From positions 548,501 through 612,500 of the forward strand of contig NC_088787.1 of assembly GCF_949628265.1 (NCBI RefSeq): 64,000 bases of DNA. The letters run 5' to 3'. Below, piece after piece: positions 2,299 to 63,800 of this stretch (positions within the stretch are counted from its first letter, which is position 1; the number at the start of each line of letters is the position of its first letter). Position numbers and translations under genes: made by a program. The DNA comes from Cloeon dipterum (Eukaryota > Arthropoda > Insecta > Ephemeroptera > Baetidae). The notes under the pieces are model-generated. The model did not search any database. It was given only the letters and a program-made list of their open reading frames with translations, and was not told the origin of the DNA.

Positions 2299-4358
2299 AT
2301 GGCAAGAAATATGAGGACTTCGCTATCGGACGCATGTTTTAAGGGCCTGATGAGGCAGAAAAAGTCCCTTTTTGACCACACAGCTGACTCAATTTTCCAA
2401 AATTTGATCATGTTGATCAACAAGGACGCGGATTTCAAAATGCAGATCGAGAGCCTCCGTGAGTTATTTTTCATCTTTGTAAATGAACCGTATTGTTTAT
2501 TTTCTTTTATTTCGATCCCCAGCGAAACCTCTGCGCGCACAAATGCTGTCTCGCCTGACCAAACTCAAGTGCAGCAATCCCCTAGGAGATTTGAACCAGT
2601 TTAACATCTTGTTAAAAGGGTTTGAAGCGTTGGTGACCCCGAAAACGACCGACATCGAGTTAGATGGACTTCTCACCTACTGTCCGGTTGAATTTAAAAA
2701 AGAAATGCTGACTCAGGTAATTGAAGTACAATATTTTCATGTTTCTCGGCACCCGGCACTTAAGATGGGAAACCCAATAATTCCACAATTCCATCGTTCC
2801 AAGTAAACGGTGGAATAATTTAAACGTATCAAAATGGCAAAAAACCTAATTTTATTTTATTTTTTAAAATGGGTGTTTAGCAATATCTTGCCCTTTTTGG
2901 ATAAAATTTTTGATTAAAACTCCGTTAAATTAAAAAAACAGTTCCTCCATCTGTATGCAGCGTTAGACGTTAACTAAACATGGACGAACATATTAATATT
3001 GATTTTTTGCTCTCTCGTTGTCAGGTTGTTCGTAAGATCGTCAACAACGCTCCGGATTTGGAGAGCCTGATTCTGAACGAGAGAAGACTGATGACGGAGA
3101 GAGAAAGCATCAGCTTCTACGCTTGCCTTCAGGAAGATGCTCTTCGTGAAATTGGCAAGTTGCGACACCTGAAGAAGCTGGGCATCAAGTGCTGCGCAAT
3201 AGATCTCTCCGACCTTCTCAGGCTTTGCAAGAAGCTACCCGCTTTGGAGCATTTGGACGTTTACCTGACAGAGCACAATTTGGACTACGCGCCTGCAGAT
3301 CGAGTGACGTTCAGAGAAAGCTTTGGAAACCTCAAAGTCTTTCTTTTCACTCAATTCACCTCAGGAGTCTTCCTCACGAAACTCTCCAAATATTGCTTGG
3401 AGACCCTTCCAAAGTTGGAAATCGTCCAAAGTCGGGTGAACGGTCATTGCTTCACAGTGGAGATGTCCGGGGATATAAACATTCCTTTCGGGTCGTCACC
3501 TCTGACACACCTCAGCACTAGACCTCAGGACGAAAATGTTCATTTGCGTTTTCCAAACGTGACCCATCTGAAGGTAAATTAAATTCAATTTTGCCTTTTA
3601 TTTACTATCTTTAGTGTATTATTTATCCAGCACTTATTGCTTAATTTAAATGTTTGTAGGTCAATCTGGCTGGAGAAGCCTACCCAAAGCCAGCCCTCCT
3701 AGATGCTTTGACGAAATTTCCCTGCATCGAGTTTCTGCATGTGAGGTATTTTTCGTCCCTCTACGTGCTGGAGAGACTCCTAGACGCGTATGGTGCCAGC
3801 CTGACAAGCCTTGAGCTTTCCGAATCGTTCTGCACCATCAAGCTCGGAACCATTTTCGAGAAATGCCCAAAGCTAGAAAAACTCTGCTTTGATGGCGTGA
3901 ATGTGGAAGATGGTGAAGAGCCCATCCAGAAATTTTCCAACCTGAGAGAGCTGGTCTGGATTACAAAGGGGTTAGTTTGCAAATATTCTAATTAAATTCT
4001 GGATTATGATTTCCTTTTATATTTTAGCGGTAAACCAGGCCATATCTCAACGATTCTCTCGGCGCCAGGGCTGGAAAAGATTTCACTGGAAGGGTCACGA
4101 TTTGAAGTTGGTGATTTGGAGAAAGTGGCAGATCTGATCGCCAGAAAGCAGATTTTGTGCCGATTGTCATCGTTCCATCTGAACGTGTATGAAATTATTA
4201 ACCCTCGCTCCAGGTCAAAATTTACAATGGCGATTACCACTGTGTTCAAAAATGCAATTGCCTTCACTCCAACTTTGACCAATGTAATAATCGATATTAA
4301 TTTTAAGAAATCGTCTGGAGAAGTATCCAGGCTTTACTTATCGTCGGAAAATCTTTAG
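2299..4358 (+). CDS. Leucine-rich-repeat protein, five exons, 514 aa
   Basis: Exons: 2299-2458, 2523-2716, 3025-3573, 3660-3970 and 4028-4358. All junctions are GT-AG, the phases are 1,0,0,2, and the sum is 1545 bases in frame. The product has an alpha-helical N-terminal part (about residues 1-115) and then irregular LRR-like strands of the LxxLxL type, such as LRHLKKLGIKCC, LPALEHLDV, CPKLEKLCF and FSNLRELVW. There is no signal peptide, so it should be intracellular. The style (ill-defined LRRs, CPKLEKL steps) recalls FBXL-type substrate receptors. I see no clear F-box in the first 60 residues, so a ubiquitin-ligase role is not claimed. It is a paralogue of the gene at 13905-15687. The start ATG follows CCACA and opens the longest in-phase model. 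Confidence 0.8.
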
Positions 4359-13904: not shown

Positions 13905-15687
13905 ATGGAAGACGCTACTCTTCTAGAGAAATCCAAGTGGCGGTTGAATGGATTAAATAAGTTTAAGGATTGGACGATGAACACCATCCTGAAAAACTTG
14001 GATGCATTCACGCAAGATGGAACACAAAATTTCATCAAATCCACATTGTGTATGAACTAGGAATTTGGAATAATTAAAATTACAAAAATTCAAATAATTT
14101 TCTTTGCTCTTTCAGCACCAGATATGAGGAACAACTTATTGGAGGAGCTGCTGAGGAGCAGGCGACCTGATAAAATTCATTTCCCCAGCATTGTGCAGTC
14201 GGTGTTCGCACTGATCAACACCAGGACCAAAAAGCTTGATTTGGATTTCCTCATGTCATATTACCCGATGAGTTCGAATGCCGTGAGAGAGTTGTTCGAG
14301 GTAAATCGCATAAAGTACGAGATTGATTTCATTAAGCAAAATGGATTATCACTGTAGGTTCTGAAGAAGGTGTCGATTGCTGCCCCAAACGTACGGCAAT
14401 TAAAAATCAACACACATCACATATCAATCTGCATGGACGGCATCGAACTCCGAAATACGTGCTTCGGATATCTAAGATCCCTGAAGGAACTTGGAATCTT
14501 AGAGCTTGTCGGACTCATCGACGGTGAAATGGACTTGGCGCTTTTGTGCAGAGAACTTCCCAATTTGCGGGTCCTTAGCGCGCCTGACACTTTTTTAGAG
14601 TGCACCACATTGTCTGAGGAGGATATCAGATTGTCATTTGGCCATCTAAGATTGCTCCATGTCCCTTTTTATACGAGGTTGGAAATTTACAAGATTTGGG
14701 AGGTGCTGCCCAATCTGGATGTCATCTATCAGAATATCTTACCAATCGGTCTCACTTTGGAAGATTTCCTTGAAGATGATAATATCCCGGGAGTGCGGAA
14801 ATATCTCAATTATGAGGCAATTATTTCCGCATCAAATGTCTGCCCAGATTACTCCAGCATCAGATACTTGGAGGTAATGTGACACGTCATCCTCTTTTTT
14901 GTTACATTCATTTATTTCTCCGTACATATTTTAGTTTTCTTATGATGAGAGCACGTGGGATGAGTTTAAGAAGACTCCGAAGCTTCCTTCAACACTTGAC
15001 GGTCTAACTCTCATCATGTTGTATTCACAAGAGACAACTGATGCTATTTTGCTCAAATATGGAGGGAACCTACGATGGCTGTCCTTGAGAGGAAATGGAT
15101 ACCAAAGCATCGATCTGAACCGCATTTCTCAACTATGCCCCAAGCTGGAAGTTCTCAGTTTGACATCGGTACAGGTCACTAGAAACGTCACCCATCAGAT
15201 CAATTTTCACTATCTCGAAGAATTTTTTACGGAACGTGTAGATATGTAAGTATTTTTGCATGGATTTAATTTTCTATTTTTTAATTAAAAATATCTCTGC
15301 AGGATGGATGGAAGCTTAACTACCCTTTTGTCCTCGTGTCCGAATCTTCGAAAGTTGGAACTGAAAATACAGGCTTGCTGCTTGAATGATCTGCAGCAAA
15401 TCAAGTATTTGATTATCGAAAAGAAGATCCTGGGTTCATTACAATCTCTCGACTGGGGAATACCTTTGGTTACATCAACACTAGTTTTCAAGGAAATCGC
15501 GGCAATTATGAAGAATGCGTCCGCCACTCTCCAAGATTTAAGGAAAATGAAGTTAACTGTCAACCATATCAGACTCAATGTCGATAACATTCGCACCAAG
15601 TGCTTCACCTGGCCAAATTACAATGGCTTAGAGGAAGCCATAGTTACTGACACAAATCTCTTCGAGATTTTAAATTTGTATGAATAA
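13905..15687 (+). CDS. Leucine-rich-repeat protein, five exons, 513 aa (paralogue of 2299-4358)
   Basis: Exons: 13905-14049, 14116-14300, 14358-14873, 14935-15245, 15303-15687. The phases 1,0,0,2 equal those of the 2.3-kb gene and the sum is 1542 bases. The N-terminal 110 residues are helical and charged (MEDATLLEKSKWRLNGLNKF start). The rest has LRR-like steps such as LRSLKELGILELVGL, LPNLRVLSAP, CPKLEVLSLTSV and CPNLRKLELKIQA. There is no signal peptide or membrane span. The first exon is short; its donor GTATGA at 14050 was chosen because it alone keeps frame with exon 2. Function is unknown: a scaffold or adaptor is likely from the LRRs, and no F-box was identified. Confidence 0.8.
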
Positions 15688-21285: not shown

Positions 21286-21418
21286 AAAAAACAAAATTAA
21301 TTAGTTAGCGCCGCCGAGAAACTAACACGCTGCTGGCCCACAGTCGCAACATTTTAGCGTGATCGAGAGAGAAGGAAATAAATGTAAAGGGGCTTGTCCG
21401 GTTCGAAAGGTCGAGAAA

Positions 21419-21711
21419 AAAGGATTTATTTTTGGAGATGTGGATGTGGCGTTTGTTGGCAGCCAGACCAGGGTGCTCAGAGAGGCATCGTCGAAAGGTA
21501 CAAGGCTGAGGAAGAGCCTCTCGCCGAACACAGCCATGAATCGAGGAATAATTTGTTCGGGAAAGAAACCTCTTCTCGCAGCTTCCAACTTGTGTTCCTC
21601 CGAGGGCCAGTCGAAGTCCATTTTATTCCACTCGTAGACGGTCGTGAAGCCGTCGGTGGCGGAGGCCAACGACGCGCCGAGCAGCAAAATTAAAGCAGAG
21701 AAAAGAGGCAT
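21419..21711 (-). pseudogene. Truncated first coding exon of a multi-domain-type Yellow/MRJP gene
   Basis: The minus strand reads MPLFSALILLLGASLASATD, then FTTVYEWNKMDFDWPSEE, FMAVFGERLFLSL and STSPKINP. It is nearly identical to the first exon of the gene at 26383-29617. Homology stops at about 21419, before the exon's donor, and no further exons follow. It has a complete signal peptide and start codon (ATG at 21711) but can encode only about 100 family residues before unrelated sequence. It arose with the segmental copy described for 21712-22500. Confidence 0.75.
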
Positions 21712-23096: not shown

Positions 23097-25504
23097 ATGA
23101 ATTTTACTTTCGTTGTATTTTTCCTGCTCAACTTTGCTGCAAACGTCACTAACGGCATAGCACCATGTGAGTATTTTTAATATAGTTTTTTCTTTATTCT
23201 TACTATAATAATAAAATTGATTGGAATTATCGCCCTTTTCCTGCTCAGTTTACGCCGATGGAGAAAACTTGAGCGCTGCGAATTGCGGCATTTGGCACAG
23301 ACACGAAAACCACAGCTCTTGGTTCGCCTATTTGCGGCACGAAGGCGAGGAATGTTACGGAATCGTCATTTCGCGAAGGACCATTCTCACGCACAAACCA
23401 GGCAATTCATTTTTTTATTTATTTAAATAGAAAATTAATAATAAATGTTACAAATTATTAGATGAATGTAGGATTCAAGTGAGGGAGGTCGGAAAAGTGA
23501 TCGCTTATCTCGGAGAATGCGCGAGTGCAAGCAAGTTTGACTCGGAAGAATGCGTCGGCAAACACATTGAAGTATATATTAATTTGGGGCCGCAAACAAT
23601 TCAAAGAATTTAAAATAATTTTATGATAAATCAGGTGCAAAAAGTGGTGGCAATAAACCAAAACCCGAGCGCTGGCGAAGATGGCGTCTACGTGCGTCTG
23701 TACAAAACCAAGACTAAAATGCCCGAGAACGTTCCAATTTGTTTGTACAACCGCGACAGAGCAACTGACTTTCCCCAGCCAAAAGATTCACGCTATTTTG
23801 CCTTTCAACGATTCAGAGACGTATAATTATTCAATTTTTGGGATTAATTTGCCTTACTTTGACAATGATTTTCTCAGGCGAGCAAAAATGATGAGTGGTG
23901 GGACCAGCTCGAGCCGCGTAAACAAATTTCCCAAATTTCAATTAATTAACAATTAAAATTTTATAAAATTGATTTCAGGAATTCTCGTTTCCTCGGAAGA
24001 ATGCTTTAAAAATCAGAATTTTGATAAGAAGGAACTTGAAAAGATGAATTTATCGCCACGGCGTTTGCTTTGCGTTCACACTCCGAACGAAGACGGTTAG
24101 AAAAATCAAATAATTACGTATAATTTGACGAACGAAACGTTGGTACAGGACGCTATTTGCTGAATTTCTACAGAGGAAGATACTTCTTGAGAGGCATGAG
24201 GGTGTTCCACCCCCTGCTGCCGTCTAGAACGAAAATTTACAGAGACATTTTGGCATACGTTAAACATATTAGTGGGCTTGCAGACGACATTCCTGTTTTT
24301 CCTCCAGTTCCACCAGAAATACAGGCTATTGGTAATTTCTTTAATGCAGCATTCATAGTTTGCGAGTGAAATTGATGGAATCATCTCCGTAGAATTCAGC
24401 ATTCAAGGAAACCTGAGCTTCCAAAATTGTGGCTCGAAATGGATTAGGTCGAAAAGAAGCAATGATGACCCAACAGACGGATTTGAAGAAACAAAATTCG
24501 TATTTTCTGGATACACAGCTCGTGAAGACTCTCACCCGTGGCATGCGGATATTGAAAACTTAGAAAATGGCACGCAATGTGGTGGAACTCTCATTTCCAG
24601 CAGAACAGTTTTGACAGGTTATTAGTGCGTTTCGAAAAAGATCAGAAAGATGACTGCATGTCTAAAATCTTAACTTCCAGCTGCTCACTGCATTTTCGAA
24701 ATGAATGTCAAAGACTTTGAAGTCACAGTTGGCATGTATGACAAGAGGTTGAAATACAATGACACCAAAATCCAAATACAAACAGTAATGATAACATTTC
24801 AACTAATAATTGAGACTAATTTTATTAAACATAGCCGAGCAAACTGGTCACTCATCCCGCGTACAGAAGCGATCAGTTCCACTACGATGTCGGATTGCTA
24901 ATTTTCGAGAAAGAAGGATACGAAATAAATAACCAAGTGCGTCCCATTTGCCTTTGGAACGAAGGATCGAGTTTGAGCCGTGTGACTGGAAAATCAGCTG
25001 TGGTAAAATAAAAAACAGAATTCTGCATGCCGGCTTGAAAATTAATAAATTATTTTCCAAAGTTGGTTGGCTTCGGACTGACGGAACATTACAGCCTTTC
25101 CGACACGCTGCAAGAAGCGCGCCTGTCTATTCGAAAACACGAAGAATGCTACCTCAGCAACAGGATTCTGTTCGGAAAACGCTTGCGGCCTGGAGACAAC
25201 TTCTGTGCTGGATTCACGAATGGTTGGTCTTTTTAGCGATTTATTGCAAATTCGGATTCATAGCAAGTATTTTACACTAGGAGTAAGCGCGTGCCTGGGC
25301 GACAGTGGAGGAAGCCTTTCTATAAAAAAGAACGGCCGCTGGTTCATCAGAGGCATCGTCAGCTTCGGACTTTCAAAAAGAGTTATTTTGGATGGGGAAG
25401 AGCAAATCGCTTGCAACCCAAACAGCTTCTCTTTGTACGCCGACGTTGCTTACTACATGGACTGGATCGTGCGAAACTCCCTGGACATTTCCTTCAAGAA
25501 TTGA
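23097..25504 (+). CDS. Secreted serine protease with an N-terminal inactive protease-like domain, 579 aa
   Basis: Twelve exons: 23097-23166, 23249-23401, 23462-23571, 23635-23820, 23878-23917, 23979-24095, 24149-24331, 24393-24617, 24681-24784, 24835-25002, 25063-25222, 25281-25504. All keep frame (1740 bases). Residues 1-20 are a signal peptide. The first S1-like domain begins at ANCGIWHRHENHSSW and has no AAHC or GDSGG, so it is catalytically dead. After a short linker the second domain is complete: CGGTLISSRTVLTAAHC (His), HYDVGLLIF (Asp), ACLGDSGGSL (Ser). The residue six before the catalytic Ser is serine, suggesting chymotrypsin-like rather than trypsin-like specificity. The activation site may lie around RSKRSNDD. 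The second intron appears to use a GC donor (CCAG|GCAATT). Secreted proteases of this layout act in insect haemolymph or gut; the exact role is unknown. Confidence 0.85.
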
Positions 25505-26382: not shown

Positions 26383-29300
26383 TTAATTATCTTCATCATC
26401 GATATCAGTGATAAAAACGACTGTCTCGATAGTTTTATTTGTATCCACTACAGCGGGACGGACCATGGCCGTGACCTGCTTGGCCTCGGACGCCTCGCAG
26501 TGGCGGCCAGAGAAGTTTGACGCACACTCGCACCGGTAGCTCGCCTGCTGCTCACCCAGACTCACGCAAGAGCCACCATTTTTGCAAACTCCGTCGTTTA
26601 CTCTACAAAAATCAAGATCTGCAAAGAATTCAATCACGTCTCATGGTTTTTCTCAAAATCAAATTATCAAAATTACCTTGATTAGTTGTGGAATTGTCGA
26701 AAAAGTAAGATTTAGTGTTGATTTCCACTGCAGCCTTGAATAATTTGTGCTTTGGATTCGATGAAAACTTAGCCATCAAGAAGAGATTGTTTGACGTGTC
26801 GAAAACAAAAAAGTATGGCCAAATATCCTGAACATTGCTATCCTATAACAAGTATGCATAATTATAATAAGTCAGAAAATAAAAGTGAATTGTGAAGTAC
26901 AATTTTGTAACAGACCGTGAACAAAATTTCTTCTTTGAAGGGGAAATTGGTGTCCCAAGTGCCGATGGATTTCTTGAAGACCAAGTCAAAATACAAGCGT
27001 CCATTTCTGTCCATGGCCATTCTCCTGGAAGGCGCCGTTTTGTTTCCAACGAATGTGACAGTTGGATGGTGAACCCCCGCCCTGAGATCCTTGACGAGCA
27101 CCGAGTATAGTACTTGTGAGGATAAGCTGCCGAAGTAGAGGTTCTTTCTCTCTTTCAGAGGCGAAAGGGCAAGACCGTCGATGTTTTTCACGTTTGTTTT
27201 CACTCGCCACGATTTCTTTGCTTTCAAGCTGAAAACGACGAGTTCTGTTGAGGTCTCGATCGTGTCGGCGATGTACGCGAAGAAGTCGTCTGGCGTCTCA
27301 TCCAACGCCAATTCAGTCAACCAACTAGTGCCATGGCGGGACACTAGATCGCCAGGAAACTCGTAAACTAGCTCCACCTGGTCATTGCTGTTGAATATCC
27401 ACAGCTTTGGACGACAAACTGAGTCACGGCCGTCGTCCACGACCCAGAGGCGACCCAAAGAGTCCACTTGCAGGCCTCTGACATCCTGCAAAGCGCTGCA
27501 GTCACCCCTTTTCTACAATAAAAATGCCTCCATGGGTCAAGGTCGCCAAGGGGGCGGATTACGGCACCGTTCTTTAACTCGACCTTGAAACACTGAACAA
27601 TACCCAGCGTTGCCTTTTTCTGTCAAGGTTGCGTTGCCGTAATCCACCCCAAGGAGATAGCAAACAGTCAAGTCTGTACCTGCATTTGCCAGGAAGGATA
27701 GGGCAGTAGTTTGGGGCGCGCAGAGAACGCGTTTTTCGTTGGTATCCAGGCGAGAGTCACGGGAACGCCATTACCCTGCAAAAAATGATGTCAGTGAAAA
27801 TAAATTTGTATTTTCAAAAGGCTTTAAATTTTGAATTTTAACAACTGAAAACAAGTTTTGTTCGTTTTTCATTGAATTTTGAGCAAATTTGGCAAATTTC
27901 CCCATCCCTGCAATGACGTCCCTGAGTGAGACATCACTGTGATATCACTCACGTCACGATTAAAACTTCCGAAGAGGAATGAAAACGATATCACATTGAC
28001 ATAATCACGGTGACCAAACGTTTTAATATTTTGCCATTGAAAAATATATATATTTACACAGTTTCGAGGGAAGCCAAGGAATATCCTATGGCCTTTCACC
28101 GCGATGTAATGCAGTTTGACATCGTCTGGTACAAAGGTTTTGTCATTTAGGGCCTTCTCCCTGTCCTCCTTTGAAGACCAAAAGTCGAATTCATCCCACT
28201 CAAAGACGGAAATTAGGTCACTGGGTGTCGGAGCGGGCTCTAAAGATACAAATACAATTAAGTTTTCTGCATATCCTAATAGGTCAGTACTTATACCTAT
28301 TACTCTTATAATTGTCCTTTTTATTCTTCTGGGAGAACCAGCTGACGATTTAACCAGTAGTTTGTTGAATCTCTGTGTTCCATTCTTAACCGTGGCCATC
28401 ATCCAGAAATTCTCAAAGGTGTCCAATGAAAAGGTCACTTCAAATGCATCCTTGATTTGAGCAGAAGAGTTTCAGTCTTTCAATTAACTAATAAGTGATT
28501 TGTAAGGACATTTACGCCAAAAATGCCTTCCTTTGATAGGGTTGAACCACATACACTCCTTAAAAATTGGGATGGGAATTACCTCGTCCTGATAATAGCG
28601 TTCCACTTGCAAGAAGTCCCTGGAATCTAGTTTAAAGATTGTGGCATTCGCTTCACACCCTGCATACAGGAAACCGGCGCTGTCTGACATCATTTTGTAG
28701 CAAAACCGTGAAGACCAGTTGCCGACTTGATTCAACTGCACTTTTTTGTTTCCAGCCCTCAGTTCAGCCACTGAAATTGCATATATCGCTTTGCTCCTGG
28801 ACTCACCGATGTACAGCTGTCTTCCATTTCCTTTCGGAGACAGGGCGATCGTGTATAAAGGTTTTCCGTGCGTCTCCAAGCGCCACGACTTGTTTTTATC
28901 CAGGCTGAAAACGACGAGGGCCTCTGCTCTGATGTCCAAAATGTAGGCCAGCCAGTCGCCGTTCCATTGGTCCAGCTCTATGTCATGCAGCCACCTTGAT
29001 TCGTAGCTATGGGACACGGCTTTTTCCGGAAACTGGTGTACGAGCGAAACGGAATCGTTGGACAAGTCGAAAATCCACAGCTTGGGCAAACAATCGTCTC
29101 TTCGGCCGTCATCCAAAGCCCAGAGACGACCGTCCGAGTCCACTTTCAGACCCCTGACTTCTTGCATTTGGTCGCAAGCTGTTCCCTGGGAAATATGGAA
29201 AATTTATAACCTGACAAAAAGTCGGTCTTAAATTTAAACTAATTTGTAATTACGAGAGAACTTAACCTTTAATTTATTTTAGTTTTTGTTGAAAATAATA

Positions 29301-29617
29301 CTTACATGCATTTCCCAGGACGGGTAAGGATTTATTTTAGGAGATGTGGATGTGGGGTTTGTTGGCAGCCAGACCAGGGTGCTCAGAGAGGCATCGTTGA
29401 AAGGTACAAGGCTGAGGAAGAGCCTCTCGCCGAACACAGCCATGAATCGAGGAATAATTTGTTCGGATAAGAAACCTCTTCTCGCAGCTTCCAACTTGTT
29501 TTCCTCAGAGGGCCAGTCAAAGTCCATTTTATTCCACTCGTAGACGGTCGTGAAGCCGTCGGTGGCGGAGGCCAACGTCGCGCCGAGCACAAAAATTAAA
29601 GCAGAGAAACGAGCCAT
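26383..29617 (-). CDS. Two-domain Yellow/MRJP protein with C-terminal EGF domain, 781 aa
   Basis: Minus-strand exons: 29617-29306, 29185-28583, 28450-28297, 28239-28058, 27775-27680, 27512-26916, 26842-26677, 26618-26383. Lengths sum to 2346 bases with every phase matched. Residues 1-18 are a signal peptide (MARFSALIFVLGATLASA). MRJP domain 1 spans about 20-356 (GLKVDSDGRLWALDDG). A linker EPAPTPSDLIS leads into MRJP domain 2, about 357-703 (VFEWDEFDFW, LPYPSWQM, GLQVDSLGRLWVVDDG). The EGF domain is 708-744 with all six cysteines (CKNGGSC, YRCEC, FSGRHC), then a 37-residue acidic tail with no membrane span. Domain 2 has no signal peptide, start codon or promoter of its own, and its first exon has a TTTAG acceptor; hence the fusion model. 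The 57-base intron between domains has no stop and could also be retained. Alternative: two genes, with the second lacking a start. Confidence 0.8.
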
Positions 29618-30679: not shown

Positions 30680-31319
30680 CAATTTTTTTAAATATCACGT
30701 GAGAGAATTTCATAGCCACGCCTTCTTTTCTGCGGTTTTTTTTATTATTTTGAAATAAATGACCAAACGAATTAATTCGTGATTTAATTTATTGCCATTA
30801 GCATTTTTGTCAAATATTTCCGAATTCTTTTGTTCGTGTCCATTCAATGAATTTAAATCATTATTTACACAAAACAATATAAAATTAACACCAAATACCG
30901 TAACAATTTTCTGTTACTTGTTCTTGTAATTAATTTAAATTAAGTGGCACGAAGTGAAGCCGCCAGCAATCCGTTAATTTACTTACCGCCGCGACTTTAG
31001 TGATGAGAAACACACGAATCCTCTTCGTGTAGCCAAAAATAATTCTGCTGGTCTGGGCCTCCTAATCTGCTGCGGCTTGCGGAGCATGACCGGTTATTAC
31101 TCCCGTGCTTCGCTACAATAATACCAATTAAATTTAATTCGATAGCCTCGGGCAGATTCGTTGTTTAGAGCACATACACCTCTGCTTCTTCTTTATTTTG
31201 CCCTTGTTATATTTGTGGTCTTCGCTATTAAAATAAAATTAAGAAGAATAATTTGATATTAATATATTTTATTGTATATTACTTAGCAAGAATAACAAAA
31301 TGTTTAAATAATCTTCATT
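30680..31319. repeat. 3'-flank segmental duplicate of 25580-26382
   Basis: See 25505-26382; the same blocks in the same order. AT-rich, non-coding, downstream of the three-domain gene on the minus strand. Confidence 0.6.
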
Positions 31320-34300
31320 TTACTCTCCTTCGAAGATATCAGTGACAGCGTAATCAGTTGTCGTCTCGATAATTTCGTTTATATTATCCACTAAAGAGGG
31401 ACGGTCTACAAAATACTCCTCCTCAAAAAACACGTCGCAGTGGCGGCCGGAGAAGTTTGATCCGCACTCGCACCGGTAGTTTGGCTGCTGCTCGCCCAGA
31501 CTCACGCAACTACCACCGTTTTTGCAAATTCCGGTGTTTTCTCTACAGAAATCAAGATCTAAAAAGAATTCTGTCATGTTTAACGGTTTTTCAGTCATTA
31601 AGTCAATTACCTTTTTGAGCTGTGCATTCGGTGCAAAAGGAAGACTTTGTGTCGATTTCCACTGCTGCTTTGAATAATTTGTACCTTGGGTTGGATGCAT
31701 ACTGGGCGATCAGGAAAAGATTGTTAGAGGCGTCGGTGTCAATCAAGAATGGCCCATAATCGTCAACGTTGCTATCCTATAACAAGAATGCGCATTGTTA
31801 GAGATATCTTTATTAAAAAACTGCTATTTTTTAATAATTCAGATAAAAGGGGCAGAAAATAAAGAACATTTAGATGTCAAATTTTGTGACGAACCGTAAA
31901 CAAAATCTCCTCTTTGAAGGGGAAATTGGTGTCCCAAGTGCCGATGGATTTCTTCAAGAACAAATCAAAATACAAGCGTCCGTTTGTGTCCATGGCCATT
32001 CTCCTGGACGGCGCCGTCTTGTTTCCGACGAATGTGACACTCGGAGACGGAGACCCCGTCCTGAGATCCTCGACGAGCACCGAGTACAGTACTTCGGAAC
32101 ACCCACTGCTCAGGTAGAGGTGCTTTTTCTCTTTCAGGGGAGAAATAGCCAGACCGCGGATGTGTTTCATTTGAATTTCCACTCGCCAAGACTTCCTTGC
32201 TTTCAAGCTGAAAACGACGAGGTGTGAAGAGAAGGAGTTGGAGTCGGCGATGTACGCGAAAAAGTCGTCTGGCGTCTCATCCAACGCCACTTCGGCAAAG
32301 TTTCCAAAGCCATGGCGCACGACATCTTCGGGGAACACGTACTTTAGCTCCACTTTGTCAGCACTGCCGTCGATTATCCACAGCATTTGACGACAAGATT
32401 TATAGCCGTTGTCCACGGCCCAGAGGCGGCCCGAAGAGTCCACTTCCAGGCCTCTGACTTCGAACAAAACACTGCAGTCTCCCTCCTCCTGCAACAACCA
32501 TCACTTCATGCGTGTCAAAGAAACTATTTAAAAAGTCAAATTCATACCATGAATATCGAGTAAGGATAAGGCAGTTGTTTGAGGCGCGCAGAGAACGCGT
32601 TTTTCTTCGGCATCCAGGCCAGGGTCACGGGATCGCGTCTCTTTAAGTTTCGAGAGAAGCTGAGGAACATCCTGTGGCCATTCATTGCGAGGAAATGCGG
32701 CTGGACTTTGTCGAGTTCAAATAAGCTATCGTTTCTCACTGCCTGGAAGTCAAATTCGTTCCACTGGAAGACGGAAGTGAAATTCTTGGGTTTGGGAGCG
32801 AGTTCCACAGAATTGTTGCCGTTTTTGCACACTCCGGTGTTTACTCGACAGAAATCCGAATCTGCAAAGAATTCTTTCTCGTCTCATGGCTTTTCACTAA
32901 ATTAAATTATTAAAATTACCTTTATTAGCTGTGCAATTGTTGCACTTTGTGTCGAATACCACTGCAGCTCTGAATAATCTGTACCTTGGATTCGAGGTAA
33001 ACCGGGCAATCAGGAAAAGATTGTTGGACGCGTCGAAAATAAAATGGATCGGCCAAAAATCCTCAACGTTGCTATCCTACAACAAATATCTAGAATAAAA
33101 ATGCTATTTTGTCGAGTGTTTTGTAAGAAATTAAAAGTCAATTAATTTATAAACAAACCGTGAACAAAATCTCCTCTTTGAAGGGGAAATTGGTGTCCCA
33201 GGTGGCGATGGATTTCTTCCCGACCAAGTCAAAATACAAGCGACCGTTTTTGTCCATGGCCATCGTCTGGGACGGCGCCGTCTTTTTTCCAACGAATGTG
33301 ATTGGCGGAAAGCGAACCCCTGTCCTGAGATCCTCGACGAGCACCGAGTACAGTTCATTGAAATTTTGGCTGCTGAAGTAGAGTTGCTTCCTCTCTTCCA
33401 GATGAGGTGAAAGGGCAATACTCTGGATGAAATTCAATAGTGTGTTCACTCGCCACGACTTCCTTGATTTCAAGCTGAAAATGACGATTTGTGAAAGGGA
33501 GCAGGTGATGTAGGCGAAGATGTCGTCTGGCGTCTCATCCAACGCCAATGCGCCCAACCACATATAACCATTGCGGGGCACAACATCACCAGGGAACTTG
33601 TACACTAGCTCCACCTGGTCACTGCTGTCGAATATCCACAGCTTTGGACGACAAACTTCTTCCATGCTGTTGTCCACTGCCCAGAGGCGGCCCAAAGAGT
33701 CCACTTGCAGGCCTCTGACGTCCTGCAAGGCTCTGCAGTCACCTTCTTCCTACAACATACCTTCGTGGGTCGAGTATCCAAACAACAATCAGTATCCAGT
33801 CCGTACCTGCATTTGCCAGGAAGGATAAGGCAGATGTTTCAGGGGCGCAGAGAACGCGGGCATCCAGATAAGGGTCACGGGATAATCTCGAGAGAAGCTG
33901 AGGAATATCTTCTGGCCATTCACTGCGAGGAACTTCAATTTGATCTCATCGGCGTCATTACATCCGGAACTGACGGCCGTCTCCTTGCCCTCCTTTGGGG
34001 TGCAAAAGTCGAATTCATCCCACTCGAAGATGGGAGTGACGTTTCGGTGCGTCGGAGCGGGCTCTAAAGCAAAAAATCACAAAATTTCACATGTTAAAGT
34101 TTCTACGTGAGCCGAAAATTCTATTCCCTGGGACGATCGTCAGGCGTGAAGGGAGATCTCAAGGAGGACACCTGTTCAACGTGCTGGAAGTTTAATTTAA
34201 AATTGTTTTCAAGGTTTGGCGAGCACGAGAGAGAAAGGGGCACGAATACGGAGGGCACCGGTTGATTTCTGAATGCCCTACCAGGTCAGTCCTTACCTGA

Positions 34301-35626
34301 TAACCCTTTCGTTCTTCCGAGAGAGCCAGTCGGCCATTTGACGAGTAGCTTCGTGATCTTCTTTGTTCCATTTGTAAGCGTGGCCATCAGCCAGAATTTC
34401 CCAATGTTGTCCACTGAAAAGGCATAGGGTCGAGACGCCACTTGAAGTTCGTCCTTTAATTCAGCACCAATTTTATTATTTAAGTGATTTGAAAGGACAT
34501 TTACGCCAACAAATTTCTTTTTTTTTCACTAAATGGGAATGAAAATAATTAAAAACTTGGAATTACCTCCTGATAAAAGCGTTCCACTTGCAAGAAGTCC
34601 CTAGAATCTAATTTAAAGATTGTGGCATTCGCTTCACACTCTGCATACAAGAAACCGTCTCTGTCTGACAGCATTTTGTAGCAAAATTTTGAAGACCAGT
34701 TGCCGACCTGTTTCGACTGCACTTTTCTGCTTGCAGCCCTCAGTTCAGCCACTGAAATGGCATTTATCGCTTTGCTCCGGGACTCACCGACATAAAGCTG
34801 TCTTTCATTTCCCTTTGGAGAGAGGGCGATCGAGTAAAAGGGTTTTCCATTTCCCTGCACCTCCACGCGCCACGACTTTTTTTGCTTCAAGCTGAAAACA
34901 ACCAGGGCCTTTGATCTGATGTCCAAAATGTAGGCCAGCCAGTCGCCGTTCCATTGGTCCAGCTCGAGGTCGTGCAGCCACCTCGATTCGTAGCTATGAG
35001 ACACGACTTCCTCTGGAAACTGATGCACGCGCGGGTGTGCGTAATAATGGGTCAAGTTGAAAATCCACAGCTTGGGCGAACAATTGTCTCGTCGGCCCTG
35101 ATCCAAAGCCCAAAGACGACCGTCAGAGTCCACTTTCAGACCTCTCACTTCTTGGATCCTGCTTAAAGCTTTTCCCTGCATAATATGAATAATTTACAGC
35201 CTTGAAAAAATCAATCTTGCATTTAAGACAAATTAATATATAATGCTTGAAATTCTTTACCTTAATTGAATGCGATTTTTTTAGTTGTTGTCTTGAAAGT
35301 ATGTATCTACTTACGTGTATTCCCCACGGCGGAAAGGGATTTATTGTTGGAGGTGTAGAACTGGTTCTGGTTCGCAGCCTGACCAGGGTGCTCACAGAGG
35401 CATCTTTGGAAGGTGCAAGGCTGAGGAAGACGTCGTCGCCGAACACAGCCATGTATCGAGGAATAAATTTTTTTTGAATGCATTTTCTGTCCACAACATC
35501 GTACTGGTTATTCTTCAAGGGCGAGTTCAAGTCCCTTTTATTCCACTCGAAGACGGTCGCGAAGCCGTCGGTGGCGGAGGCCAACGACGCGCCGAGCACA
35601 AAAATTAAAGCAGAGAAACGAGGCAT
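31320..35626 (-). CDS. Three-domain Yellow/MRJP protein with C-terminal EGF domain, 1131 aa
   Basis: Minus-strand exons: 35626-35315, 35175-34567, 34453-34297, 34063-33807, 33749-33159, 33076-32920, 32861-32548, 32488-31895, 31776-31611, 31558-31320. They total 3396 bases and all nine junctions are GT-AG and in phase. There is a signal peptide (MPRFSALIFVLGASLASA). MRJP domain 1 is about residues 20-359, domain 2 about 360-694 (linker EPAPTHRNV, FEWDEFDF) and domain 3 about 715-1052 (FTSVFQWNEFDF, GLEVDSSGRLWAVDNG). The EGF domain is 1057-1093 (CKNGGSC, YRCEC, FSGRHC), then an acidic tail. Between domains 2 and 3 a partial EGF (FCRVNTGVCKNGNNS) runs straight into domain 3 within one exon. Internal domains lack signal peptides and start codons. 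The product should be a large secreted multi-propeller protein; ligand unknown. It may still be made as separate transcripts. Confidence 0.8.
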
Positions 35627-36375
35627 GGTCGGTCGACCGCACGGCTTCTGATCGCCGACTGCCTTTTAAAAACACGAAACTCTTGATGGTCGCGTGCACA
35701 CTGGAAGGAGCAGGTGATTATTTATTTCTCTCTCCCTCTGAACCAGTTTTTTCGGGTCATCGCCTTGAGTATTAAGAGGCAAATCGGTGCGAAACCACGC
35801 GGATTGATGGTATCAGTTCTAAATAAAAATTATTTTAATTATGACGAGAGCGGAGCAGGAATTTCAATTTTGACAAATTGATAATCGAATTTGATCAAGG
35901 CAGGTGAATTAAATACTTGGCTGAAAATTCAGCGGTCATTTTTCGATTCAGGCGACGGCGTCAGATATTATGAACCTTTGGCATTTAAATTCCCTAAGAA
36001 CGATTTTTTCTGTCTCTTTGAAAATCGAGGGTTAATTTAAACATGAGTGATTTTTATTCCTTCTCTCTGTCAGCGAACCAATTATAAAAATGACTACTAA
36101 AGAGAAGTTTGCGATGAAAAAATAAAATATTTTCATACAATGCTTCCACCTTTTCGTGTAATGAAATTTTATGCTTTATTGGGCCGTGCAATCCAGTTTT
36201 ATGCAACCTGCGTCGCATTAAAGTAGGGCTAATTGCATACACTCTACGGTCTTGGATTTGGGCGGAGCAAACCCAAGTAGCTCTCTGCAAATCAGTTTAA
36301 ATTTGAATACGTTTCCAAATAAGTATTTTAGATAAGATGAGTTCGGCGGATGAACTGTTTATCGCTGATACAATG
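35627..36375. other. Divergent intergenic region between the three-domain gene and short form K
   Basis: Near 35711-35725 the minus strand has AAATAAATAATC, a weak TATA equivalent of the 29.7-kb promoter. An R2-like block with TGCAACCTGC (about 36202) and an opposed ATTGCAT (about 36232) follows. No R1 copy and no gene between the divergent starts. Confidence 0.45.
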
Positions 36376-42404: not shown

Positions 42405-43931
42405 ATGACTCCGTTTTTCACCGCCATTTTCTTGCTCGCCGGCCTTTCATCCCTGGCCACCGCCGGCGCCAACTTCACTCAGATTTTCGAGTGGAAAGAA
42501 TTGGACTTCGAGTGGCCGTCGGAGGAAAGCAGAGCACAGGCCTTGGAAGATGGAAATTACATACCTGAGAATATTGAACCTCGTTACATGGCTGTGTACG
42601 GAACAAGAATCTTCCTGAGCCTGCATAAATCTCAAGGCACTCCGGCCACTCTGGTGTCTGTGCCGACGAGCAGCGCGTCCTCTGCAACCCCTAAACTCAC
42701 CCCATTCCCATCGTGGGACATGCATCTCAATGTAAGTAGCAAATTCGAAATTACCATTTGCGCAACTCGATTTATCATTTTGAAGGAGTCTGGAAACTGC
42801 GACAAGATCGACCGGGCAGTAGGGCTTCAAGTGGACTCGGTCGGCAGGCTGTGGGTGCTCGATTGGGGAAACTCCTACTTCAATTGCAGTTCAAATCTAT
42901 GGATTTTCAACTTAAACAACAACGAAACGGAACTCGTTCATCGATTTTCTTTTGACGGCAAGTTGCACGACTTGGTGCTCGACGAAACGTCAAACGGAAC
43001 CTTCGCCTACGTCGCGCGCTGGAGTGATTCCCACATTGTTGTGTTTAGTTTGGAAAGAAATCAATCTTGGATTGTTGACACGCCAGATGTCGAGGTTTTG
43101 TCCATCGCCCTGTCTCCTAAGGACCAGGAACCGAGACAGCTCTACCTTGGCGAATTGTTCAACAATGAATTGTATTCAATCAGTGTCGCCGCACTTCGGA
43201 ACGGAACTCGAACTGCAGAACCGGAACTAATTGGAAACTGGACTGGAACACCATATAGAATGGTGATGGACAACCACGGGACCCTGTACGCCGCCTTTAT
43301 GGATCAGAATTTCATTTCCTCTTGGAATACTTCCCAGCCATTTAAGGAGCAACGTTTTCATGAGGTATGAAATAATATCTTATTTGCGATCAGAATAATT
43401 AATTGCCTTGCATCTCACTCTTTTTAATAATTCCTATATTAATTTCAATAAATTTTGATTATTAAGTTTGTTCATTGTTTTGTTTTAGGTTTCTGGACTC
43501 AAATCTTCTTGGCCCTTTACTTTTGCCTTGGACCAAAATGGATCTTTTTGGAAGGCAGTGGTTGATGACCAAAGAACGCCAAGACTCAGGCTTTTGACGG
43601 CTCCTGTTGGTGCAAAATCGTACATCTACGAGGACTCACCAGGTGCGTTTACTCTAGGCTTTAAATTGGGAAATTGGTTACTTCTTCCCTCCGAATAATT
43701 TCACATAATTTAACTTTTAAAGTTTTCATTTTAGAAGGGGATGAATTAGTTAGGGGCTGCTTTGGTTATAGTTAATTTGTTATCTTTCTCACCCTGAAAC
43801 AATCTCGAGAATTGATCAAGATTAAACCAATCTTTGAACCCTTAATTAAATATAACACGTTAGTTATTTTTATGATTTTTCCCCTTTATTTAGAATGCGC
43901 CATTCCGTGTCAGAAGGATGTTACTGCCTAA
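42405..43931 (+). CDS. Yellow/MRJP-family secreted protein, short form J, 365 aa
   Basis: Exons: 42405-42731, 42786-43364, 43489-43642, 43894-43931. The signal peptide MTPFFTAIFLLAGLSSLATA precedes one MRJP domain: FTQIFEWKELDFEWPSEE, YMAVYGTRIFLSL, GLQVDSVGRLWVLDWG, KLHDLVLDETSNGTFAY, PRQLYLGE, LRNGTRTAEP, TFALDQNGSFWKAV. Intron 2 is only 54 bases, a multiple of three without a stop, so an 18-residue longer read-through form is possible. The last exon gives ECAIPCQKDVTA then TAA. An alternative 3' exon encoding a transmembrane helix lies in compatible phase at 45675-46027, so a membrane isoform is conceivable. Confidence 0.85.
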
Positions 43932-44182
43932 GGTTGGGAGAGTACCTTTGCAAGGTAGGATGGAAGGGCGAAAACTGTGACCAACTCTGGGATTACACCT
44001 TCCTGCCTGACTTACATGCAAAGCTCTCTGCGACCTCGAAAACGATTGTAGACTCGAGTAGTGGTTTTAGTTTGGACATTATAAATGATTTTCTGGGAAA
44101 TTACTTGCGAATTTTAATTTTAACCAAAAACCTGAGCATTGCAAAGTGGTTCAAGTCGAGCAACTCTTTCAGCAGCTTTTAA
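43925..44182 (+). other. Out-of-frame EGF-like segment after short form J
   Basis: In the frame one base back from the coding frame the DNA reads CLRLGEYLCKVGWKGENC, and it stays open to about 44180. It is the best preserved distal EGF half among the plus-strand genes, except that one cysteine is replaced (EYLC instead of ECLC). Confidence 0.6.
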
Positions 44183-45674
44183 ATTATTGTGTTAATAAAT
44201 AAATACATTCAAGGTCGTTACTAAAAGGTCGCAACCTGCGCAGCATTCGCGTTGAGTCAGTTGCATTGCTTACACATAATGGTATAAAAATGTATAAAGT
44301 AGAAAATTCAGAGTCCATCATACAAATTTCTAATTTATTAGTGCAGCGAATTCTATTCTCTTATTTGCAGATTCAGGACAACTTACCACTTTTTTTCAAC
44401 TGTCACGAGACTAAAGCAACTAAAACATTAAAAAATGCTGGTGCGACAAGGACGTAAATGTTGAACCAACTTAAATTGGAAAAGAAACAAAAAACAGATA
44501 CCTTTGATAAAATTCGGATCGACGAATTACACTCGCAGAACTCTTTGGGGGTGTTGTACAAAAATAAATTCTCGCGCCTGCCTCAGTGCCTCATCGACAC
44601 GAAACTGAATTCGTTCTGGCCGCTCGTCTACCTAGAGAACATGGAGAGGCAGGTGTTCCTTATTTTTGGAGAAATTCCTGGCGGCACGAGTGGCTGCTGA
44701 GAGTCTCCGCACGCTGCCGCCCCACCCCCAAGTGAACCCCAGGCCAGCCACGGGGAGCTGAGCAACCAACAGCAGTTCGGAGGCGTCGACGGCCACGACA
44801 TAACCATAAAAGGGGCACAACACAAACAAAAGGCACGATGCAGGTTAAAAAATCCAGAAATCACCAAATTTGATGGTCTTTTTTGTTAATATTTTCTAGA
44901 AAAAACTGGTTACATGAAAAAATTAATTTTCGAAATTACAAAACCATACACACACACGCACAGACGCAAGCTGTACATTTGGCGTTGACGCTAATCTGAG
45001 TCCAACAGGAAATTTGGTTAAAATTCATGTGGCCTAAAAGGAAGTGCTTTTTTCCCTTTTTTCGACTTAAAACTATTTTTTTAACAAATTGATTTATTTC
45101 ATGGCGATTTAGAGTGTCGTAAGTTTTAACATATTCAATTATATAATTCTTATAACGAGACGAATAAATATTACATAAAATACGCGGTCTAATTGTTCAA
45201 TTGGGCTAACAGGTAGATATGCAGTTACTTTATTAATCTTGTTTTTTATTTAAATTGTTAATTTCAGCCAAAATTAGACAAAAATAACTAAGCAAGCGTA
45301 TGAGGGAATGTTTGGGGGTTGATTGCGGGCTGAATTGAACATGTGTTTGCCTTTTTCGCATTGCAATGACGATTCCATTCAGATTTGGGGGAATTGTGAA
45401 AGCTTTCCGACTCGATTCTTGCAGATTTGCACCTTTAATTTCTAGCATTTCTGGACTAATTGTAAAGGATGCGTTTCAATAAAATATCTTGGCGTGGTAC
45501 AGTAACTCGAGCTGGTCATTTCTTCGACTGGGCTTCGAACAATGAGGCCCTTGAGCCCATTGGATATGATAATGGGACTCGAGTTTTCGCTATTAGGGGT
45601 TGGTCATGTCAAAAGAGATGAACTGGCCGAATTAAATCAACAATTTTGTTAAAATTAAAAGTTCTTTGACGAAG
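44183..45674. other. Intergenic DNA between short form J and the tail exon
   Basis: Contains an R2 trace (GCAACCTGC near 44231, GTTGCATTGC at 44261) and the GC-rich patch 44640-44860 related to 30381-30640. An 80-codon frame at 44458-44700 has no recognised domain. If the tail exon belongs to J, this is its large last intron. Confidence 0.4.
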
Positions 45675-46027
45675 ATTCCATCGAAAAATCCCACTTGATC
45701 ATCGCTTTGACTGTCTCGGTCGTTGTCATTGTGATTTTATGTTGCATTATTCTGTGGTTGGCTCTACGGGTGAAAGGATTGAAGAAAACCACCAACCGGA
45801 TGAAGAATGAAAACCAGGAAATGTCTGTTTTTCCTCCTGATAACGTAGTCGAACGCGATGAGCAGTTGGACGATGATAATTATTACGACGACGTCGCTCC
45901 TCCCGTTGCCTCCACTTCTTGCCAAGTCGATTTTGGGAGCGCCAGACCTTATTCTGACTCGCATATTTACGCAGAAGTCAATCCATCGCCTCCAGGCTCA
46001 CAACTTTATCTGAAACTCCGGGACTAG
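45675..46027 (+). CDS. Transmembrane and Tyr-motif cytoplasmic tail exon
   Basis: Exon start 45675 follows ACGAAG and is the position that gives a split-codon phase (G|AT) equal to the other last exons of the family. The 117 codons encode a very short outside stub, a hydrophobic helix (IALTVSVVVIVILCCIILW), a basic stop-transfer (RVKGLKK) and a tail with EMSVFP, YYDDV, IYAEV and LYLKL motifs. It is homologous to the tail of the gene at 60826-63966, which has QMSVFP, repeated EYDDV and a terminal QYLKI. No start codon or signal peptide fits, so it must be spliced to upstream exons; short form J (exon 4 ends 43642) is the phase-compatible neighbour. The acceptor is weak and the link is unproven. 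Confidence 0.55.
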
Positions 46028-60825: not shown

Positions 60826-63800
60826 TCACGGTATGATTTTGAGGTATTGCGCCGCCTCGGAAGTGGTGTCTTCGCGTTGGGGCGACCTGGAAGGTTCCGG
60901 TGCAACTTGATCGTAGAAAGGTTCGGGGTCAGGAGGGCCGACGTCGTCGTACTCGACTGGAGCAAGAGGCGCCTCTCCAAATTTCTCGAAAGTCCTCTGC
61001 CTCGCAGGCATCGCTTTCACTCTCCTCGCCGATCGCGGGCTGAGAATAATCGGCCGCTCGTAGAGAACAGGCGAAGGGGGCGTGGCACCATCGTATTTGA
61101 CTTCCTCGTAGAGCGGCACTTCCGCCGCGCCGACGTCATCGTACTCTTCCGGAACGGAAGCTGCGGCGGCAATTCTCGAATCTTGAACTTCGTGGTATTC
61201 GGCCGGCTCGTCGGGGAAAACGGACATTTGCTGAGCCTCGTTGGTAGTTGGAGGAGGGGAACTTTTTCTCTTCAGTTTCAAAACGAGCCAAACAATGATC
61301 AAACTCAACAGGATGACGGTAAATATGTAGGAGCAGATGAGAATGATGTTAAACAGCCGATATTTGTGTAATTCTTCTGTCAGGATGCTGCTCTCCTGAA
61401 TCTCGGTTGTGGACGTCGGAGGTTTTGTTGTGGTTGGAGTGGACAAGCTGGTTCGTTCTGTAACGATGACAGGCGTTGGGTTGGTCTTTGGGGAAAGGGT
61501 AGTGGTGGTTGGAATGGTGGGCGTAAGTGAAACAATAATAATTCTGACTCAATATCCTGCTGCTTCTACAATTATTTCCTTTTGAAGTGCTAAAAAGTTG
61601 CATTTGCCATAAAAATGTCGGAAATTTTTGGATTCATAAAAAAGATTTCCACGATTTTATTGAGATTGACTTAACCGAGTTGGGTTTTCAGCAAATAAAG
61701 AAAAAGTATTAAGTGTGACATTAAATGGGATTTCCCAAACTAGAGATTTCAGCAAAGCCGACCATTATAAATTTTTTGTAATTTTCTACAGTTAAAAATG
61801 CGAGCTATTCCGGTCTTACGACGTTTTGATAAAAACCAGAATCCTTCAATATTGCTCTTTTTTATGTAAATATTAATGCAATAATAAGGACGTTTATTTC
61901 TTTGTTTTTCCACCCTGAATCAAAGAAAAATAAAAAAAGCACGGAGTTTAAATTTTGAAAATAAAACCAAAGATTATCTAATATCTGTGTCATTTTTATA
62001 TAAAGTCCCATAGAAATATGCCTTATTATTGTTCTAAGTAAAATTTGATTGACATTACCAACTGCGTGAAATTTGAAAAGTTGAATATGTGGAAATTGGA
62101 AGCTAGAAATAAAAAATTGAAAGCGAGCCCTTTTTGATTCGTCGCTTTCAGCAACGCACTCGTTGCAAAGTGCTCTTTGGCTGCATGGCTTTAAATACGC
62201 GCGAAGAAAAGTGAGATTTTTTCATTCATTTTGGAAGGAATTAAAAAGTTGTGTTTGCTCAGAGCAGACTTACCTGGCGATGCCTCGAACATGTAGGATT
62301 TAACACCAACTTCAGCCTTCAAAAGCCTGTATTTTGGCTTTCTTTTCTCATCTCGCACCGTCAACCAAAAATTACCACTTTGGTCCAAGGCAAAAGTAAA
62401 CAGAAAAGCAGAATCCAGTCCAGCGACCTAAAACCAAGCAATGCACCGACTCGATGATTTAGAATTCTTAGTAAGAGCTTTTAGTGAAATCGATAAAATT
62501 TTAATCAAAATGCAGCAGGGTTAATTTTTTGATCGTTTTTGAAAATTTCACGAGAGCGAGAAGAAGTTTGAGAACGGGTATTTATTCAAAACGAACGAAA
62601 TTTCTATTTCCTTTGCCAAAAATTCTGTCTCCTCCTCGCGCAATTTTTAATTTTTACTTGCGGACTTTTAAAGCAAAAATTTTCCGCCTTAGACTATAGA
62701 ATTTTCCTTTTTTTCCATCTTTAAATTAAAAAATAAATTAATGTTGAGCTATAAATTTACTTGGCTAATTGAAAAGAAATTATATTATTTTCCCAGCTGT
62801 AAATTTTGCAGCATATTATACATATTATATCTACAAATAATTTTGAATCAAGAAATATTTTTTAATTTAAAAAAAATGTTTGAAGACTTATTGACAAAAA
62901 TATTTTTAGAGTTTGTGCAGAAAAATGGATCAATAATTTTGAACCGACTCGCTGAATTCCGATCAGAAAATGAAATTATTGGCATTTAAATTGAAGTATT
63001 GCCAAAATAATAATAACCTTGAAAATAAAATCATGTATTCTGCTCGTCGTTAGTTACATATTTAATTTTCATCTGGCAATAACCAATATCGATTTCACAA
63101 ATTTCACAAAGTAGAAACGACGGGGTCAGTTCCAAAAAATGAAATCGACAACAAAAGCGCATTCTTTGGCAATCCGCCTCGAACGAGACGAGTTTTCTTT
63201 AAGGCTGAGCACACGCTCTCACTGGCACAAAAATCAACGAATTTTTTCTCATTTGAACTGTCAGAGCGCTAAATAATTTGCGACGGATAAAAATTCAACG
63301 AGGATCCAAACACCCGCCGTCACAAAAAATCCGAGCTTGAAAATTATGCTCTTTTCAAAGTAATTTAAATTGGTCACCTACCTCATCGTGAAATCGTTGC
63401 TCCTCAAACGGCTGGGAAGTGTTCCACAAGGAAATGTAGTTTTTATACCGAAAGGCGGCATACAAGGTCCCGTGGTTGTCCATCAGCATTCTATTCGAAT
63501 TAATTGCAGTCCAGTTTCCGATTGCTTTCGGATTTGCAGTTCGAGTTCCGTTGTTTAGTGCGGCGACAGGAATTGAATACAGTTCTTTGGAGTTCCATTC
63601 GCTGAGGTAGAGCTGTCTCGGTTCCTGATTCTTGGGGGACAGGGCGATGAAAAAAGCATTGATTCCTGGCGTGTCCAATATCCGAGATTGGTTTCGTTCC
63701 AAACTAAACACGACAATGTGTCGTTCGCTCCATCGCGAGATGTAGGCAAAGGTTTCGTTGGGAGTTTCATCAATCACCAAATCGTGCATATATTTTTGAA

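Follow-up and report, generated by a model that had tools for sequence, protein, structure and literature searches.

Analysis of a 64,000-nucleotide stretch of the mayfly Cloeon dipterum (contig NC_088787.1, forward-strand positions 548,501 to 612,500; hereafter the window, whose coordinates are used unless stated otherwise) uncovered a gene on the minus strand at 31320..35626, here called gene T, whose predicted product joins three Yellow/MRJP units and epidermal growth factor (EGF) sequence in one chain. Its ten exons are connected by GT-AG junctions and form an open reading frame of 3396 nt (1131 amino acids), reproducing exactly the in-phase, ten-exon model of a preliminary description of the locus, and the intron phases repeat as 0,0,1 / 0,0,1 / 0,0,1. 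All of the exons lie on the minus strand. Exon 1 (35315..35626) encodes the start codon, the signal peptide, and the start of propeller 1, which continues through exon 2 (34567..35175) and ends with a phase-1 exit in exon 3 (34297..34453). Propeller 2 starts in exon 4 (33807..34063), which is entered in phase 1, lacks a signal peptide, and has an in-frame stop codon just upstream; it continues through exon 5 (33159..33749) and ends, again with a phase-1 exit, in exon 6 (32920..33076). Exon 7 (32548..32861), also without a signal peptide, combines an EGF remnant with the start of propeller 3, which extends through exon 8 (31895..32488) to exon 9 (31611..31776). Exon 10 (31320..31558) contains an EGF module, an acidic tail, and the stop codon, and an AATAAA polyadenylation-type signal follows on the same strand at 31268..31273.

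Each isolated unit matches the PF03022 (MRJP) profile, with 53.7 bits for unit 1, 72.6 for unit 2, and 77.0 for unit 3 against a cut-off of 19.8, and the whole chain matches MRJP in five stretches (184.8 bits). Exon 10 alone passes the EGF profile (24.5 bits, cut-off 21.5); within the whole protein the EGF score is 19.8 bits, below that cut-off, and the precomputed domains of an identical database protein comprise MRJP and PF07494, with EGF not listed. The hydrophobic N-terminus is a predicted signal peptide under a hydropathy rule (mean of at least 2.0 over 9 residues), which stands in throughout for a dedicated signal-peptide program. A hydropathy scan found no C-terminal membrane helix: past the N-terminus only windows 520 and 522, both in propeller 2, exceed 1.3 (1.31 and 1.43). 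Structure matches assign the protein to the six-bladed propeller fold, those listed falling mostly over residues 363-683 (propeller 2). We infer secretion and multivalent binding because the chain has a signal peptide but no further membrane helix, together with the propeller fold and EGF sequence. T is very probably one protein-coding gene for a secreted multivalent binding protein, made of a signal peptide, three Yellow/MRJP six-bladed propellers, an EGF remnant, and a C-terminal EGF, with an origin in two steps.

Two related genes share the fused plan. Paralogue N (26384..29617, minus strand) would encode a propeller-propeller-EGF protein (P-P-E) of 781 amino acids, provided that a 282-bp insert is removed by splicing, while gene X, on the contig that holds the window (C2:527237-530338), has eight exons and a propeller-EGF-propeller-EGF plan (P-E-P-E) of 813 amino acids. 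In this notation T is P-P-e-P-E, where e is the EGF remnant. The first EGF of X and the start of its propeller 2 lie together in one 455-nt exon. P0002, a protein of an older C. dipterum assembly, shares 92.2% identity with X across 818 columns. The window also holds a third copy, O, in the form of an orphan exon 1 (21418..21711, minus strand) that is 89% identical to exon 1 of N; no later exons of it were seen. A block directly upstream of T exon 1 (35627..35750, minus strand) is common to the exon 1 copies of N and O. The insert in N (27776-28057, minus strand) lies inside exon 4, and its bases 18-282 match a dispersed repeat with 81 genomic matches, itself included, many of them arranged as inverted pairs with a spacing of ~1 kb. 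The end of the insert supplies a TTTTTTGCAG acceptor, so that this repeat-derived sequence may serve as an intron.

Searches with the family covered a single genome, that of C. dipterum itself, and T, N, and X are the fused genes found there rather than a full count. The EGF exon of T has 27 genomic matches at expectation values (E) up to 1, and an MRJP exon lies within ~1.5 kb at six of these loci: two in T (one being the remnant), one in N, two in X, and one at C2:2957016. The last was considered as a further fusion and rejected, as it is the terminal portion of a distinct multi-EGF gene, and the Yellow gene that comes next has a signal peptide of its own. No MRJP exon was found within ~1.5 kb of the other 21 loci, a distance that wider gaps would escape. 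The surrounding expansion is very large, with at least 199 PF03022 matches and at least 150 domain-start matches, counted by exon, spread over the whole window and much of the contig, mostly between 0.35 and 5.3 Mb.

Exon 7 opens with DSDFCRVNTGVCKNGNNSV, the front of a truncated EGF of which 19 codons and two cysteines are left (32806..32861, minus strand), and propeller 3 begins at 32805. The preliminary description had placed the starts of domains 2 and 3 at splice acceptors; this is correct for domain 2, whereas in domain 3 the remnant codons come first. When aligned by eye with the EGF exon, the position of the third EGF cysteine is occupied by S, and stretches of 28 amino acids from the two exons share 53.6% identity. 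Because the remnant runs on into propeller 3, and because the 58-bp intron 5′ of exon 7 matches, at 86% identity over its full length, the 58-bp intron 5′ of the EGF exon of N, the most likely ancestor of exon 7 is an EGF exon that became fused to the beginning of a propeller.

Several lines of evidence bear on whether the three units belong to one gene. The T translation is identical to the NCBI entry LOC135936016, “uncharacterized protein” [Cloeon dipterum] (100% identity over 100% of the 1131 amino acids in a protein database search), and the public annotation thus already carries the model. Reading of exons 4 and 7 bore out the earlier observation that domains 2 and 3 lack a start codon and signal peptide of their own: the open stretch before either unit contains no ATG and no signal peptide. 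No promoters of their own were found for units 2 and 3 in a search limited to sequences resembling the block upstream of exon 1, which has no other match within T at E 0.001. Signal peptides are present in 26 of 30 domain-start exons that were read; the remaining four are precisely those that open the internal units of T, N, and X. These 30 are the best matches to exon 7 among the at least 150, a sample that favors relatives without a signal peptide, and two of the loci (L049 and L050) carry the same sequence there.

It is very improbable that units 2 and 3 are instead independent genes, or that most transcripts stop after unit 1 or 2, with the 1131-aa model a merger of neighbors. Gene predictors do seem to merge MRJP neighbors, as the annotated two-MRJP chain P0003 has a second signal-peptide-like stretch in its interior and is probably two merged genes, and AATAAA or ATTAAA hexamers occur inside T, among them those at 34477, 34460, 34196, and 32926. 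Against separate products, propeller 3 shares an exon with the EGF remnant, and N and X repeat the fusion plan. The gaps between the T units measure only 233 bp and 58 bp, the upstream block is absent from them, and units 2 and 3 lack a signal peptide as well as an ATG in the open stretch ahead of each. Given these features, the matching NCBI model, and the plan shared by three paralogues, the earlier proposal of a single gene with three MRJP domains and an EGF is well supported at the sequence level.

In order to place the units among their relatives, a midpoint-rooted tree was built from 33 rows: seven from T, N, and X, one per unit, plus every database protein from P0004 to P0029 (26 in all). 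The three first units cluster together (support 100/96), and fragment P0009 falls among them. A second cluster (95/78) takes in T units 2 and 3 together with unit 2 of N and X, and within that group the two T units are sisters (98/92). The closest single-domain row to this second group is P0004 (100/98), followed by P0006, P0007, and P0008. A first tree, with 17 hand-chosen proteins of the 26, gave the same three groupings at 100/95, 98/94, and 97/93, such that only the units 2/3 grouping weakened when all proteins were included (from 98/94 to 95/78). The topology is consistent with a single ancestral fusion between two genes that had already diverged, followed by duplication of unit 2 within T.

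These relations are observed; the succession of events is deduced from the tree together with the exon layout. In a first step, two adjacent MRJP-EGF genes would have fused. The upstream partner would have been broken within its last exon, the EGF one, and the downstream partner within exon 1, past the signal peptide. The product would be a single exon, entered in phase 1, in which the EGF reads on into the next propeller, a stage that X would still display. In a second step, within T, unit 2 and the front of its EGF would have been duplicated to yield unit 3.

A number of observations weigh against the reading of T as one gene for a secreted multivalent binding protein. The NCBI record may be purely computed, and no full counterpart was found among the matches listed from the older assembly, the nearest being P0009, a fragment of 229 amino acids. 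The last bases of exon 6 include an AATAAA (32926) that could permit a shorter transcript. Propellers 1 and 3 are barely covered by the listed fold matches, the whole-protein structure model is middling (predicted local distance difference test, pLDDT, 69.5; predicted template modeling score, pTM, 0.40), and its EGF part is not confident. The ratios of non-synonymous to synonymous substitution (dN/dS) between the units of T and N, at 0.55-0.69, point to weak constraint, with an interval that extends up to 0.98 for unit 1 and spans 1 for the EGF exon (0.38-1.33). The branch of T unit 1 is long (0.39, vs. 0.076 for N unit 1), and the unit lacks one cysteine present in N unit 1, so that it may be decaying.

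Relaxed dN/dS, the long branch, and the lost cysteine would also be expected if T were a decaying fusion, intact by chance or recency and without a useful protein. Its surroundings could be read in the same way, since a coding exon of neighbor N is interrupted by a repeat-derived insert, no N-like protein is among the matches listed in the protein searches, and copy O consists of exon 1 only. We consider decay unlikely, because 1131 codons remain open across ten GT-AG exons, the dN/dS intervals of all three propellers stay below 1, and the plan of X is kept at 92% identity between two assemblies. An assembly artefact, in which tandem copies were collapsed or misjoined, is suggested by the nature of the region, a tandem array of similar genes, but is hardly credible: the fusion plan of X is present in two assemblies, and units 2 and 3 of T are only 62.5% identical at the protein level, too divergent for a simple misjoin. 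Identity with the NCBI record is no test of this point, as the record and the window seem to come from one assembly.

Proteins with more than one MRJP domain per chain are known. One study (PMC6678240) describes two-MRJP dopachrome conversion enzyme (DCE)/Yellow proteins in oysters (with RNA sequencing coverage for C. gigas), two unionids, and six insects, and proposes incomplete duplication as their origin. In C. gigas the two MRJP domains reportedly adjoin without an intron, and EGF is mentioned once in the text, in the legend naming the domains of its figure 1. T resembles these proteins in having several MRJP domains but has three units rather than two, joined via phase-1 introns and hybrid EGF/propeller exons. 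The preliminary description had held that known Yellow/MRJP proteins are single-domain, which the two-MRJP proteins contradict; three MRJP domains plus EGF were found, within these searches, only in T. No description of three MRJP units with an EGF was found in the open-access literature searched, where LOC135936016 is not named, and a term search of the accessible part of the C. dipterum genome paper (PMC7250882) returned no yellow, MRJP, royal jelly, or EGF. No paper in that literature brings together any two of MRJP, EGF-like domain, and mayflies, and among the papers listed for multiple MRJP domains PMC6678240 alone uses the plural. Only C. dipterum proteins are among the matches listed in the protein searches (3, 6, and 21 rows at E up to 0.001), although remote multi-MRJP proteins from elsewhere in the animal kingdom could have been masked by the filters on words and length.

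Insect Yellow, DCE, and MRJP1 (PF03022) share with T the unit profile, the fold of propeller 2, and the N-terminal signal peptide. They typically have one domain, a layout that is characteristic rather than defining, whereas T has three in one frame. Dopachrome conversion and ligand binding are among their roles. LRP-type receptors (LRP4, LRP2, LRP6) contain several six-bladed propellers, of the YWTD kind, together with EGF modules. In a Foldseek search with T, LRP4 and LRP2 occupy the first 12 rows, although with query template modeling (TM) scores of only 0.13-0.25, and LRP6 appears in row 35. The YWTD profile (Ldl_recept_b) is not among the five Pfam families listed for T (E up to 0.1), and LRP-type receptors have a membrane-spanning helix after the ectodomain, unlike T. 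The likeness between T and these receptors is a resemblance of plan, not kinship.

Membrane-anchored Yellow relatives also appear to be encoded in this genome. A strong hydrophobic helix lies near the C-terminus of five of the 28 database proteins P0002-P0029 (P0004, P0006, P0007, P0010, and P0029); the other 23, some of which look truncated, show no such helix. In P0004, P0006, P0007, and P0010 the helix precedes a tail rich in Y-x-x-V type motifs, which we take to resemble phosphotyrosine docking sites. Two open reading frames in the window, at 45659-46027 (+) and 60826-61548 (−), are receptor-like Yellow/MRJP relatives with the same helix and tyrosine-motif tail. Y-x-x-[VILMP] occurs 22 times in the six tails (those of the four proteins and the two window frames, with ends chosen by hand), compared with a shuffle mean of 9.3, and none of 1000 shuffles reached 22. 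The helix-and-tail segment of P0010 has 88 genomic matches at E up to 0.01, including 82 on C2 and two in the window, some of which overlap or contain stop codons. T, N, and X might form the soluble arm of a mayfly Yellow-based recognition system. As secreted propeller-EGF proteins they would bind the many membrane-anchored Yellow relatives whose cytoplasmic tails are rich in tyrosine, or would serve them as decoys or co-receptors, and an LRP-like architecture would have evolved separately from a pigment-enzyme family; we regard this scenario as speculative and distinctly unlikely.

Further features were noted in passing. P0027 represents a second, different MRJP-EGF union, in which MRJP is followed by Delta/Jagged- or teneurin-type EGFs, and a short stretch of the window at 43856-44182 (+) resembles it when compared by eye. 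An open frame at 25082-25504 (+) contains a GDSGGSL stretch, presumably the motif found in trypsin-type serine proteases, and those at 2974-4358 (+) and 14358-15687 (+) look leucine-rich-repeat-like by eye.

Within one genome, the EGF between propellers is full in X, halved in exon 7 of T, and absent at exon 4 of both T and N, which are apparent stages in the passage from tandem genes to a multi-domain protein. If expressed, T would be the first three-propeller Yellow protein found in these searches, within a very large Yellow/MRJP expansion that includes receptor-like members, and it offers a testable entry to the role of these genes in mayflies.
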